The notes beneath the pieces are model-generated. The model saw only the letters and a program-made list of their open reading frames with translations. It had not been told where the DNA came from and searched no databases. The position numbers were made by a program, and so were the translations under genes. Shown here piece after piece: positions 44,268 to 50,469 of a stretch of 64,000 nucleotides of DNA (positions are counted from its first letter, which is position 1; the number at the start of each line of letters is the position of its first letter). Source of the DNA: Luteimonas padinae (GTDB lineage: Bacteria > Pseudomonadota > Gammaproteobacteria > Xanthomonadales > Xanthomonadaceae); contig NZ_BMZT01000008.1 in NCBI RefSeq assembly GCF_014652935.1, positions 62,001 to 126,000 of the forward strand, in the 5' to 3' direction.

Positions 44268-45284
44268 ATGTTGTTCCAGCACGTAGCCATCGCCGGCCTC
44301 GCCCACATCGACGCCCCGCGTCGCCTGTCCTCGGACGAGATCAACGCCCGCCTGAAGCCGACGCTCGACCGCCTCGGCATCAAGACCGATGTCCTCAAGG
44401 ACATCGCCGGCATCCACGCCCGCCGGCTGTGGGACGGCGACATGCAGGCCTCCGATGCCGCCACCCTCGCAGGCGTCAAGGCGCTGGCCGACGCCGGCAT
44501 CGACCCGGACAAGGTCGGCCTGCTGGTCAACACCTCGGTCAGCCGCGACTACCTCGAGCCGTCCACGGCCTCGATCGTCAGCGGCAACCTGGGCCTGCCC
44601 GACACCTGCCAGAACTTCGACGTCGCCAACGCGTGCCTCGCCTTCATCAACGGCATGGACATCGCCAGCCGCATGATCGAGCGCGGCGAGATCGACTACG
44701 CCCTGGTGGTGGACGGCGAGACCGCCGACCTCGCCTACGAGAAGACCATCGAGCGCATGACCCGCGCCGACGTCACCGACGAGGACTTCCGCAACGAGCT
44801 GGCCACGCTCACGCTGGGCTCCGGCGCCGCCGCCATGGTGCTGGCCCGCGCCGAACTCGCCCCCGGCGCTCCGCGCTACAGGGGCGGCGTGACCCGCGCG
44901 GCCACCGAGTGGAACAAGCTCTGCCGCGGCAACCTCGACGGCATGATCACCGACACCCGCCTGCTGCTGATCGAGGGCATCAAGCTCGCCACCAAGACCT
45001 TCGAGGTCGCCAAGCAGAAGCTGGGCTGGGTGGCGAGCGAGCTCGACGAGTTCGTGATCCACCAGGTCAGCAAGGTGCACACCGCGGCCTTCACCAAGGC
45101 CATGGGCATCGACCCGAAGAAGGTCATGACCATCTTCGGCGAGCACGGCAACATCGGCCCGGCCTCGGTGCCGATCGTGCTGTCGAAGCTGCGCGAGGAG
45201 GGCCGCCTGAAGAAGGGCAACCGCATCGCGCTGCTGGGCATCGGATCGGGGCTGAACTGCTCGATGGCCGAGGTGGTCTGGTAA
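44268..45284 (+). CDS. oleA: OleA, thiolase-like beta-keto acid synthase of olefin biosynthesis
   Basis: Condenses two long-chain acyl-CoAs head to head to a 2-alkyl-3-ketoacid, the first step of long-chain olefin synthesis. The 338-residue protein has Cys123 (VANACLAF), Glu97 (SRDYLEPST), His265 (FVIHQVS) and Asn295 (EHGNIGPAS). From memory the published Xanthomonas residues are E117, C143, H285 and N315; all four differ from mine by exactly 20, consistent with a tag in the published numbering, so the catalytic set is complete. ATG 44268 is the start of the conserved MLFQ. The other ole genes follow only after four unrelated genes. A terminator hairpin lies 25 bases downstream. Confidence 0.95.
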   Translation: MLFQHVAIAGLAHIDAPRRLSSDEINARLKPTLDRLGIKTDVLKDIAGIHARRLWDGDMQASDAATLAGVKALADAGIDPDKVGLLVNTSVSRDYLEPSTASIVSGNLGLPDTCQNFDVANACLAFINGMDIASRMIERGEIDYALVVDGETADLAYEKTIERMTRADVTDEDFRNELATLTLGSGAAAMVLARAELAPGAPRYRGGVTRAATEWNKLCRGNLDGMITDTRLLLIEGIKLATKTFEVAKQKLGWVASELDEFVIHQVSKVHTAAFTKAMGIDPKKVMTIFGEHGNIGPASVPIVLSKLREEGRLKKGNRIALLGIGSGLNCSMAEVVW

Positions 45285-45330: not shown

Positions 45331-45425
45331 GCGTCGTTTCAGGGGCGCGCGTGCGCCGCATCGACTGGCACCGCGGCATGGGGGTGGCGCCGGCCATCAC
45401 TGCGTCGGAGAGGCCAAGGTCTGCC

Positions 45426-46217
45426 ATGGAATTCGGTTTCGAGGTCTTCGCCCTGCTGGCGCTGGCGGCGTTCGTCGCCGGCACCATCGACGCGCTGGCC
45501 GGCGGCGGCGGGCTGATCACCATCCCCGCGCTGATGGCTGCCGGCATCCCGCCGGTGCAGGCCATCGCCACCAACAAGCTGCAATCGAGCTTCGGCACCA
45601 CCAGCGCCGTGCTGGCGTTCGCGCGCCAGGGGCGCATCGACTTCCGGCGCTTCCTGTGGCCCGCGGTGGGCGCGTTCGCCGGCTCGGTGGGCGGCGCGAT
45701 CGCAATCCAGCTGGTGGATCCCTCGTTCCTGGCCGGCCTGGTGCCGGTACTGCTGGTGGCGATGGCGTCCTACTTCCTGCTGGGCCCGAAGGCCAGCGAA
45801 GCCGAACGCCACGCGCGCCTGGGGCAGGCGGCGCTGGTCACGATCATGTTCGCGCTGGGTTTCTACGATGGCTTCTTCGGCCCCGGCACCGGCTCGTTCA
45901 TGGCGACCATGCTGGTGGCGCTGTTCGGCTTCGGCCTGGTGTCGGCCACGGCGCATACCAAGCTGCTGAACCTGTCGAGCAACATCGCGGCCCTGGCGAC
46001 CCTGGTCATCGGCGGCCAGGTGCTGTGGACGGTGGGCCTGGTGATGGCGGTGGCGAGCATTGCCGGCGGCCAGTTGGGTGCGCACCTGGCGCTTGGCAAG
46101 GCCGGCGCCCGCCTGATCCGGCCGTTGCTGGTGGTGATGTCGCTGGCGCTGACGGCGAAGCTGCTGATGGAGCCGGGGAATCCGCTGGTGGGGTGGGTGA
46201 GGGGGCTGGTGGGCTGA
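45426..46217 (+). CDS. TSUP family (TauE/SafE) membrane transporter
   Basis: A 263-residue permease with seven or eight membrane helices. The N-terminal phrase FVAGTIDALAGGGGLITIPAL (about residues 13-33) and the repeat in the second half, MFALGFYDGFFGPGTGSFM (about 142-160), are the paired signatures of this family, which exports sulfite or organosulfur anions. Substrate here is unknown. ATG 45426 is preferred because longer in-frame starts add a charged, unconserved leader. Its position between oleA and the rest of the ole genes has no obvious metabolic reason. Confidence 0.87.
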   Translation: MEFGFEVFALLALAAFVAGTIDALAGGGGLITIPALMAAGIPPVQAIATNKLQSSFGTTSAVLAFARQGRIDFRRFLWPAVGAFAGSVGGAIAIQLVDPSFLAGLVPVLLVAMASYFLLGPKASEAERHARLGQAALVTIMFALGFYDGFFGPGTGSFMATMLVALFGFGLVSATAHTKLLNLSSNIAALATLVIGGQVLWTVGLVMAVASIAGGQLGAHLALGKAGARLIRPLLVVMSLALTAKLLMEPGNPLVGWVRGLVG

Positions 46218-46245
46218 GGGCGGTTTGTGCCGGATTCCGGCCAAC

Positions 46246-46321
46246 CGTTACCTAGCCGGATCCGCGTCCGGCTAAGTAACGCTGCGAGTCACTTTGACAA
46301 CAGATGTTGATCTAAGTAACG
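46246..46321 (+). promoter_or_regulatory. Promoter of the Fic gene with three copies of a 10-base motif
   Basis: CTARGTAACG occurs three times: inverted at 46246-46255, direct at 46272-46281 and direct at 46312-46321. The first two form an imperfect hairpin or dyad of 15-base arms. A TTGACA (46294-46299) and, 17 bases on, TAACGA (46317-46322) make a plausible promoter, and the third motif overlaps that -10 element. The gene downstream encodes a C-terminal winged helix that could bind here. Confidence 0.6.
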
Positions 46322-46353
46322 ATTCAGCGACTATCAGTTCCCTGGAGGGCTCC

Positions 46354-47514
46354 ATGGTCAGGAAGACCGGGCATTACGTCACCAGCACACTGAATGGGCA
46401 GTCGTACCAGGCATTCGTACCTGCGCCCTTGCCGCCCGATCCACCGCTCCAGCTCAACCACGATCTGGCCAACCTGCGCGACAAGGCCCTGGTGGCGCTG
46501 GGCGAGCTCAAAGGCATCACGCGCATCCTCCCGGACGCACGACTGTTCCTTTACCAGTACGTGCGCAAGGAAGCCCTCCTGTCCTCGCAGATCGAGGGCA
46601 CGCAATCCTCGCTGTCGGACCTGCTGCTGTTCGAGTTGGATGAAGCGCCGGGCGTACCGCTCGACGATGTGCGCGAAGTTTCGAATTACATCGATGCCCT
46701 GGAACATGCGTTGCAGCGCGTGCGCGATGGTTTCCCGCTGTCCCTGCGCCTGCTGCTGGAGATGCACGAGCACCTGCTCCGTCGTGGGCGCGGGGCAGGA
46801 AAGGCGCCCGGACAGTTCCGGCGCACGCAGGTGTGGCTGGGAGGACCCAGCCCGGACCGCGCGCAATTCGTGCCCCCGCCCGCCAATCATCTCGACACAT
46901 GCCTTGGCGAGCTGGAACGGTTCCTGCACGCGACCGAGGACGGCATATCACCGCTGGCGCGCGCTGCCCTTGCGCACGTGCAGTTCGAGACGATCCATCC
47001 CTTCCTGGACGGCAACGGCCGGCTTGGGCGTTTGTTGATCGTGCTGATGCTCTTCGATGCCGGACTGCTGGAGGAGCCCTCCCTCTATCTCAGCCTCTAT
47101 TTCAAATCCCGTCGTGAGGAGTACTACCAGCGACTGGACGCCGTCAGGACGCAGGGTGACTGGGAAGGGTGGCTCGGTTTCTTCTTCGATGGCGTGGCCG
47201 CGACCTCGGGCCAGGCCGTGGATACGGCGCAACGGCTGCTGCGCCTGTTCCAGGACGATCGCGACCGTCTCCGCGGTGCCGGCCGCATCGCCGGCACCGC
47301 GTTGCAGCTGCATGAAGCGTTCACGCGCAATCCCCTGAGGACAACGGCGCGGCTGTTGCAGGAAACCGGTCTGTCGAAACCGGCGATCGCCCGAGGGCTG
47401 GACGCGATGCAGGCACAGGGCGTGATCCGCGAGATCACCGGGAAGCAGCGCTACAGGATCTTTGCCTACCAGCCCTATCTCGACATCCTCAGCGAAGGCG
47501 CGCAACCGCTGTGA
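46354..47514 (+). CDS. Fic family protein with C-terminal winged helix
   Basis: A 386-residue Fic protein, expected to transfer AMP to a protein hydroxyl. The catalytic motif HPFLDGNGRLGR is at 215-226, and the N-terminal inhibitory motif (S/T)xxxE(G/N) is present as SSQIEG (77-82), so it is a class II, self-inhibited enzyme. A DUF4172-like N-terminal part precedes the Fic core; the last 70 residues form a winged helix-turn-helix (TARLLQETGLSKPAIARGLDAMQAQGVI). ATG 46354 has TGGAGGG upstream. The promoter carries a repeated motif, so self-regulation is likely. Confidence 0.88.
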   Translation: MVRKTGHYVTSTLNGQSYQAFVPAPLPPDPPLQLNHDLANLRDKALVALGELKGITRILPDARLFLYQYVRKEALLSSQIEGTQSSLSDLLLFELDEAPGVPLDDVREVSNYIDALEHALQRVRDGFPLSLRLLLEMHEHLLRRGRGAGKAPGQFRRTQVWLGGPSPDRAQFVPPPANHLDTCLGELERFLHATEDGISPLARAALAHVQFETIHPFLDGNGRLGRLLIVLMLFDAGLLEEPSLYLSLYFKSRREEYYQRLDAVRTQGDWEGWLGFFFDGVAATSGQAVDTAQRLLRLFQDDRDRLRGAGRIAGTALQLHEAFTRNPLRTTARLLQETGLSKPAIARGLDAMQAQGVIREITGKQRYRIFAYQPYLDILSEGAQPL

Positions 47515-49456: not shown

Positions 49457-49551
49457 GGTAGTCGCCCCTTCGCGCGCCCGGGACGCATCGGGCATCAGCC
49501 CCCGGCGACCGCGGCCTACAATGGCGGCCGCCGTCCGCCAAGGTGTCCACG

Positions 49552-50469
49552 ATGCAGTTTCCGGGCTATCCCGCCACCCGCCACCGCTTCCAGGTCCGCC
49601 CCGGCATCGAGCTGAGCTATCTCGACGAAGGCCCGCGCGATGGCGAGGTCGTGGTCATGGTCCACGGCAATCCGTCGTGGAGCTATTACTGGCGCACGCT
49701 GGTGGCCGGCCTCTCGGACCGCTACCGCTGCATCGTGCCGGACCACGTCGGCATGGGGCTTTCCGACAAGCCCGACGACGCGCCCGACGCGATCCCGCGC
49801 TACGACTACACCCTGCAGTCACGGGTCGATGACCTCTCCGCGCTGCTCGAGCACCTGGGCATCGACGGCCCGGTGACGCTGGCGGTGCACGACTGGGGCG
49901 GGATGATCGGCTTCGGCTGGGCGCTGTCGCACCAGGCGCAGGTGCAGCGGCTGGTGGTGCTCAACACCGCGGCCTTCCCGATGCCCGAGGCCAAGGCTAT
50001 GCCCTGGCAGATCGCGCTGGGCCGCGACTACACCATCGGCGAGATGGTGATCCGCGGCTTCAACGCGTTCTCGTCCGGCGCGTCGTGGCTGGGCGTGGAG
50101 CGCAGGATGCCGGCCGCGGTGCGCCGCGCCTACGTGGCGCCCTACGACAGCTGGAAGAACCGTATTTCCACGGTGCGCTTCATGCAGGACATCCCGCTGT
50201 CGCCGAAGGACCGGGCGTGGCCGCTGCTGGAGGAATCCGGCCGGCGGCTGCACGAGTACGCGGGCCTGCCGGCCTTTATCGGCTGGGGGCTGAAGGACTT
50301 CGTGTTCGACCATCACTTCCTCGAGCGCTTCCAGGCCGAACTGCCGGGTGCCGAGGTCATGGCGTTCGACGATGCCGGGCACTACGTGCTGGAGGACAGG
50401 CACGAGGTGCTGGTGCCCGCGATCCGCGACTTCCTCGACCGCAATCCCATTCCGTCCCCCAGCCCCTGA
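49552..50469 (+). CDS. oleB: OleB, beta-lactone decarboxylase of olefin biosynthesis
   Basis: Alpha/beta hydrolase related to haloalkane dehalogenases that removes CO2 from the beta-lactone made by OleC, giving the cis-olefin. Starting at ATG 49552, the nucleophile is Asp114 (AVHDWGG) and the general base His277 (DDAGHYVLED), which equal the numbers I remember for the Xanthomonas enzyme, so this start is favoured over GTG 49543. The oxyanion segment VHGNPSWSYYW is at 38-48. Length 305 residues. It is separated from oleC by a REP doublet and two genes on the other strand. Confidence 0.93.
   Translation: MQFPGYPATRHRFQVRPGIELSYLDEGPRDGEVVVMVHGNPSWSYYWRTLVAGLSDRYRCIVPDHVGMGLSDKPDDAPDAIPRYDYTLQSRVDDLSALLEHLGIDGPVTLAVHDWGGMIGFGWALSHQAQVQRLVVLNTAAFPMPEAKAMPWQIALGRDYTIGEMVIRGFNAFSSGASWLGVERRMPAAVRRAYVAPYDSWKNRISTVRFMQDIPLSPKDRAWPLLEESGRRLHEYAGLPAFIGWGLKDFVFDHHFLERFQAELPGAEVMAFDDAGHYVLEDRHEVLVPAIRDFLDRNPIPSPSP

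Follow-up and report, generated by a model that had tools for sequence, protein, structure and literature searches.

The window, that is, the whole stretch of 64 kb of Luteimonas padinae DNA that was analysed, carries a gene for a SoFic-type Fic protein (hereafter fic) that lies between genes resembling oleA and oleB and is preceded by a cluster of short repeated sites. The features are listed below; those with no source named were read from the sequence, and the ole names are what we take these genes to be from similarity and gene order.

44268-45284: 3-oxoacyl-ACP synthase III gene, oleA-like
45351-46217: permease-like gene, between the oleA-like gene and fic
46246-46255, minus strand: half-site 1 (CTAGGTAACG), exact match; outer inverted site, -108 to -99; kept in Pseudoxanthomonas japonensis
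46272-46281, plus strand: half-site 2 (CTAAGTAACG), exact match; opens the 40-bp direct repeat; kept in P. japonensis
46288-46296, minus strand: possible degenerate half-site (GTCACTTTG), 2/9 mismatches, overlapping TTGACA; weak
46294-46299, plus strand: TTGACA, a -35-like hexamer
46312-46321, plus strand: half-site 3 (CTAAGTAACG), exact match; 40 bp past half-site 2; kept in P. japonensis
46344-46349, plus strand: GGAGGG, likely ribosome-binding site, 4 bases before the ATG at 46354
46354-47514, plus strand: fic, SoFic-type class II Fic protein of 386 aa (Pfam Fic_N and Fic, PADLOC SoFic, structure matches)
46582-46599, plus strand: inhibitory motif SSQIEG, residues 77-82
46996-47031, plus strand: Fic catalytic motif HPFLDGNGRLGR (residues 215-226), for the most part invariant across 81 homologues
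47281-47469, plus strand: predicted winged helix, residues 310-372 (AlphaFold2 model)
47377-47415, plus strand: predicted recognition helix, residues 342-354 (model); variable in the family, co-varying with the operator
49543-50469: haloalkane-dehalogenase-like gene, oleB-like

The best start codon of fic is the ATG at 46354, behind GGAGGG. The encoded protein displays the class II motif (S/T)xxxE(G/N) as S77-SQI-E81-G82, N-terminal to the Fic motif at residue 215 in the same chain, and HPFLDGNGRLGR follows the catalytic consensus HPFx(D/E)GNGRxxR. In an alignment of 81 homologues S77, S78, I80, E81 and G82 were invariant and the Fic core was strongly conserved, with variable residues in the recognition helix. 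An AlphaFold2 model of the product (mean pLDDT 88.9) carries the inhibitory motif on a predicted helix at residues 62-81, with a pLDDT of only 56-76 per block between residues 61 and 110. At the C-terminus the same model predicts a winged helix, with a wing and a three-helix bundle (310-325, 331-338 and 342-354, the last being the recognition helix) at a block pLDDT of 91-96 (301-360) and 77-89 (361-380); no Pfam wHTH family matched the product. The two parts that the earlier note had described, an N-terminal inhibitory element and a C-terminal winged helix, are thus both present, the latter as a prediction.

The PADLOC SoFic profile PDLC03963, listed in the PADLOC table without a curated cut-off, matched residues 17-381 over profile positions 5-360 of 361 (E 4e-114, 379.8 bits). 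The NCBIfam equivalog NF046030 (SoFic) gave 140.8 bits, below its curated cut-off of 550, and we therefore regard the protein as SoFic-like and outside NCBI's strict SoFic. In structure match lists that are weighted to the Fic domain and barely test residues past 309, the nearest solved structures were SoFic and a Fic protein of Mycobacterium marinum. The latter (PDB 7cb8, solved with CDP going by its title) was the best match, with a Z of 38.0 and 2.7 A over 368 residues, and the SoFic structures (Shewanella SO_4266; PDB 3eqx, 3zcn and 3zec), which share with the fic product the order Fic_N, Fic and C-terminal winged helix as well as the class II motif, were alike over nearly the whole length (Z ~36 over 347-351 residues) at 25% identity in the structural alignment. 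CbFic2 of Coxiella burnetii (PDB 8cil), likewise a class II protein with a DNA-binding C-terminal winged helix (PMC10628234), gave a Z of 22.9 and 8.1 A over 330 residues.

Judging from its motifs and family, the fic product is probably an AMP-transferring anti-phage toxin restrained by its own N-terminal helix, a defence role at this locus being taken over by analogy from the SoFic family. SoFic proteins have been described as defences that act by abortive infection from a single gene, their regulation being called an open question (PMC12249575), and in S. thermophilus a group of systems that includes SoFic did little against the phages used (PMC11514479). The locus is not a class I Fic pair of the FicT/FicA or VbhT/VbhA kind, the inhibitory motif lying within the toxin chain itself. 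Sofic-AS1 of E. coli H397, a SoFic-type toxin with a class II inhibitory helix like that of the fic product, is followed by a gene for a 47-aa antitoxin (PMC12249575); of the short frames listed here none made a convincing antitoxin gene, the one noted being a 48-aa TTG frame that overlaps the end of fic, and a counterpart may still be present.

The three copies of CTARGTAACG that the earlier note had reported upstream of fic are real and exact. Position 46246, where that note began, is the first of these sites and lies upstream of the start codon, and copy 1 has the opposite orientation to the other two, a point the note had not made. Allowing up to one mismatch, these copies are the sole matches in the window. 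In shuffled sequences such matches numbered 1.24 per 64 kb, and three were reached in 17 of 100 shuffles. The number of copies is thus unremarkable by itself, unlike the presence of three exact ones inside 76 bp. A search of the 3.1-Mb genome for the further targets that had been anticipated yielded no exact copy outside the fic promoter and 15 further single sites with one mismatch. The core TARGTAAC occurs four times in the genome, three of them at the fic promoter; around the other (C20:2239) no further site with at most 2 mismatches was found in the 701 surrounding bases, and a site with 3 mismatches lies 37 bp away. The closest named relative, a P. japonensis protein 86% identical to the fic product, has an upstream region in which 27 of the 30 site bases are identical, compared to 40 of 95 aligned bases outside the sites, and its promoter has a fourth copy of the word. 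The degenerate site GTCACTTTG, which lies between copies 2 and 3 in agreement with the spacing seen in the family, is lost in P. japonensis (3/9 bases) and was for that reason graded weak. Taken as a 10-mer it has 3 mismatches, and sites of that quality are common in the window (0.35 per 160 bp).

Copies 1 and 2 could also pair in RNA: 46246-46281 folds by prediction into a strong hairpin (-26.1 kcal/mol and a z of -4.52 for 46240-46300) that begins 28 bases past the stop of the upstream frame, as would be expected if the first inverted pair served the upstream gene or a fic leader as terminator or attenuator and were not an operator. However, the hairpin has no T tract and a terminator scan found none, P. 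japonensis keeps the outer half-site bases and loses the stem extension, and a hairpin leaves the copy at 46312 and the 40-bp direct repeat unexplained. On the lack of a T tract and of conservation in the stem extension we rejected the terminator or attenuator reading, and we consider an RNA role in place of an operator extremely unlikely.

The TTGACA hexamer stands, whereas the -10 element that the earlier note had placed 17 bp from it, overlapping the third copy, is poor: the hexamer there, TAACGA, fits TATAAT in only 2/6 positions and that at 18 bp, AACGAT, in 3/6. No good -10 was found at 15-19 bp from TTGACA and a consensus scan predicted no promoter; we rejected the overlapping -10 as a good promoter element on the poor hexamer and the scan. 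With no good sigma-70 promoter in the window, repression by polymerase blocking would therefore rest on the position of the sites. Operators and promoter-like hexamers were both placed in 38 related loci and overlapped in 29, by a mean of 4.2 bases against 2.6 for slid promoters, a moderate excess only.

The earlier note held that absence of the motif copies upstream of homologous fic genes would speak against the proposal. Taken literally the word is kept in few: at least two copies of TARGTAAC within 110 bp were found in 3 of 104 promoters (the window's fic, P. japonensis and Denitrovibrio, L069), a single copy in a member of the Hyphomicrobiales (L091), and TAAGTAAC-like words were missing upstream of most homologues. 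This poor conservation of the literal word first seemed to refute an operator; repeats of other spelling were then found. The upstream regions of relatives carry other repeated words, which among the upstream sequences listed differ even within one bacterial family, and it is the architecture that recurs in many. As a side observation, the Denitrovibrio fic promoter (upstream of position 2989) bears seven TAAGTAAC-like sites, four exact and three with one mismatch, of which those on the minus strand lie 40 bp apart at -143, -103, -63 and -23.

In order to describe this architecture we used 104 non-redundant fic upstream regions out of 110, dropping those that were redundant or short (L019, L042, L049, L066, L098 and L118); start codons in all locus sets were chosen by rule. 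The occurrence of at least one repeat pair (102/104 loci) was discarded as a worthless statistic, since shuffles give 83.65. By spacing, direct 9-mer repeats occurred at 41 bp in 31 of the 104 loci, against 1.15 expected from shuffles, at 40 bp in 16 (0.95 expected), at 30 bp in 14 (0.9 expected) and at 31 bp in 10 (1.15 expected), and inverted repeats at 23 bp in 37 (1.4 expected). We then scored triples made of a half-site, an inverted half-site and a direct repeat, with free spacing, a direct lag of 28-45 and a maximum score of 27. Scores of at least 22 were reached by 50 of the 104 fic promoters as compared to 8 of 401 control segments taken at these loci. The triple of the window's fic promoter scored 23, with lags of 16 and 40, and none of 30 shuffles was as good; the best triple in P. 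japonensis scored 21, has a non-matching middle word and was matched or beaten by 1 of 30 shuffles. All 30 shuffles were beaten at 57 of the 104 loci, with direct lags of 41 (33 loci), 40 (12), 42 (2), 31 (6) and 30 (4), and a convincing triple was lacking in 33 of the 104 promoters (more than 1/30 shuffles as good).

The layout was found again in further sets. Among viral contigs, for which 59 of 80 loci were used (the 21 dropped comprised 15 redundant within the set, 4 redundant with earlier sets and 2 short ones, all clades being kept), a triple score of at least 22 was obtained in 33 of 59 loci vs 2 of 117 control segments, and the 39 loci beating all shuffles had direct lags of 30-31 (20), 40-42 (18) or 33 (1). 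Held-out genomes of the phylum beat all shuffles in 10 of 28 cases (28 of 29 loci, the redundant L184 being dropped). With the NCBI SoFic model 30 loci were found and 24 used, there being no start or motif in L124, L138, L142, L143, L144 and L147; 8 of these 24 beat all 30 shuffles, none of them among the five over the model's cut-off. Those five have a repeated upstream word of their own, TGTCGA/TCGACA, present 4-7 times in ~220 bp upstream and 0-1 times in 500 bp of coding sequence. By triple score no operator was found in nine relatives of 40-43% identity (L200-L208). The genome also has a second fic gene (G000:C1:258740-259822, L179), 42% identical, upstream of which no operator was apparent by eye.

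We asked whether operator spelling follows the recognition helix. Operator similarity correlated with recognition-helix identity once Fic-domain identity had been removed (partial r 0.268, a value reached in 0 of 500 permutations) and hardly with the remainder of the winged helix (0.076, reached in 3 of 500); the loci in all co-variation tests are related to one another, and the p-values are therefore too small. In helix classes drawn up after inspection of the data, PAT[VI][NG]K went with TATTTTA in 12 of 14 loci (others 2/90), PTIR with TAAGGAAA-like words in 7 of 9 (others 0/95), PTIAKS with AAAGGAT in 3 of 3 (others 3/101) and S[KL]P[AT][IV].R, to which the window's fic product belongs, with at least two TARGTAAC in 3 of 4 (others 0/100), and the SFP class was weakly tied to its word (14/36 vs 14/68, p 0.04). 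The code is thus partly readable, PATVNK going with TTATTTTAG and SKPAI.R with TAAGTAAC. Its PAT[VI][NG]K rule also applied outside the loci from which it was drawn: on held-out loci this helix went with at least two TATTTTA in 7 of 9, other helices in 0 of 19. Operators were also predicted by borrowing the operator of the training locus whose helix was closest; 71 of the 104 loci, those in which no more than 1/30 shuffles did as well, formed the training set. The prediction was above the median in all 19 held-out loci (the percentile averaged 0.84; a control with the most similar Fic domain and another helix gave 0.44), 9 of 28 having been left out by a threshold set after the clade of 40-43% identity showed no operator. 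For viral loci the same prediction was above the median in 52 of 59, with 0.72 vs 0.49 for the Fic-domain control.

These data also bear on whether the repeats might be operators of another host regulator, for instance one of several defence genes, with the winged helix controlling the enzyme only. The C-terminal domain of E. coli Sofic touches the AMPylase domain and is required for toxicity (PMC12249575), and the domain therefore has another job; moreover, no demonstration of SoFic autoregulation was found in the literature searched. A regulator of this kind fits poorly with the different words found within one bacterial family, with a second exact operator being absent from the genome, and with a word that tracks the recognition helix more than the Fic domain and is shared by distant bacteria with a similar helix (the window locus and P. 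japonensis, Denitrovibrio L069 and Hyphomicrobiales L091). We consider an unrelated regulator very unlikely.

The best explanation, and very probably the correct one, is that fic encodes a SoFic-type class II Fic protein which, through its winged helix, binds a private operator in the fic promoter and represses its own gene. Self-repression had been called plausible in the earlier note and is now backed by the comparison of related fic promoters and recognition helices: binding of the sites and control of the own gene are very probable because related fic genes share the layout and its spelling follows the recognition helix. We infer that the C-terminal winged helix would bind the half-sites CTAAGTAACG, set 40 bp or four DNA turns apart in a direct repeat, and an outer inverted copy, perhaps joined by the degenerate inverted copy between the direct repeats, and that dimers would bridge the repeats on one face of the DNA. 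The bound protein would cover the TTGACA region and repress fic, holding a toxic enzyme at a low set level, and the promoter would open once the protein has been consumed, modified or drawn off. In this reading the layout stays the same across the family, with direct repeats at 40-42 or 30-31 bp and an inverted partner between them, and the spelling shifts with the recognition helix.

This arrangement has a precedent in CccR of Yersinia pseudotuberculosis, also a class II protein; it has a DNA-binding domain at the C-terminus, the promoter of its gene holds inverted sites, and its self-repression was shown in 2022 by footprint, EMSA and a lacZ fusion, promoter activity rising 3.3-fold upon deletion (PMC9755527). 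The view that such an arrangement sets fic apart from the usual Fic proteins is unsupported; given CccR, Fic self-repression is not new, and our result is best seen as a strong generalisation, less as a new principle. Inverted repeat sites in the own promoter are common to both genes and the geometry differs: CccR has a single pair of 10-bp boxes, inverted and separated by 26 bp (PMC9755527), whereas fic has three clear half-sites and a 40-bp direct repeat. CccR, which we compared with the fic product by description only, is moreover a secreted T6SS effector (PMC9755527). DNA binding by SoFic was undemonstrated as of PMC10628234, the part available of a 2026 review names CccR and not Sofic (PMC12894286), and in a literature search largely without subscription papers we found no report of operators of SoFic-type genes or of a family-wide code. 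The comparison offers a concrete hypothesis, that the SoFic 'CTD' binds DNA in a sequence-specific manner at its own promoter; if true, operators of SoFic-type genes could be predicted from the protein sequence and the 'CTD' would become a testable regulator.

The sites could instead serve mainly to switch enzyme activity, operator DNA acting as inhibitor or trigger and repression being secondary. DNA binding by the C-terminal domain of CbFic2 induces dimers and a switch from AMPylation to deAMPylation was proposed (PMC10628234), and E. coli Sofic requires dimerisation for toxicity (PMC12249575). The CbFic2 tests, however, used random DNA, its specific site not being known, and the protein is reported to modify host histone H3 (PMC10628234); in CccR a dimer mutation lowered DNA affinity 148-fold with marginal effects on toxicity (PMC9755527). 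A primary role in activity switching thus appears unlikely to us, and self-repression remains our preferred reading. We regard as quite improbable the broader proposal that SoFic-type genes on chromosomes and (pro)phages make up one large family of one-gene toxins, every member having a private operator that its own recognition helix spells, and that the enzyme differs in activity between its operator-bound and free forms. If it were true, the operator would be the missing sensor or antidote of SoFic-type toxins, and any event in infection that strips the sites or competes for them (such as degradation of DNA, a halt in transcription or the arrival of an element bearing this operator) would both induce the gene and release the toxin.

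Relatives of the fic product are also found on viral contigs and plasmids. They are encoded by 329 candidate viral-contig stretches in IMG/VR (of which L209-L288 were sampled), many of which may be prophage or plasmid DNA; no relatives were found in annotated phage records at E 1e-30. Relatives occur in addition on 123 plasmid records, mostly from Sinorhizobium, Rhizobium and Agrobacterium and 87 of them predicted conjugative, at 54-55% identity among the matches listed (H1-H25).

No fixed gene partner of fic emerged and its neighbours are diverse. The most frequent families are restriction-modification and helicase ones, which account for no more than 4 of 73 upstream and 3 of 76 downstream neighbours (best 25 of 109 and of 95 families, respectively), the neighbours having been picked as longest frames, of which some are surely wrong. 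A SoFic-like fic gene behind an oleA-like gene is nevertheless recurrent in this bacterial family: a Fic match downstream of the latter, on the same strand, was observed in 11 of 60 genomes examined, at 55-354 bp in ten of them and at 1.07 kb in the window, where the permease-like gene lies between. The copies behind oleA-like genes belong to different Fic lineages, with 63-66% or 31-37% identity to the window's fic product. Among the ten, the copy in G040 is a fragment and that in G017 is split: at G017:C1:363524-364265 two matches lie in different frames behind the oleA-like gene, the second piece being 53% identical to the window's fic product, and the gene looks disrupted.
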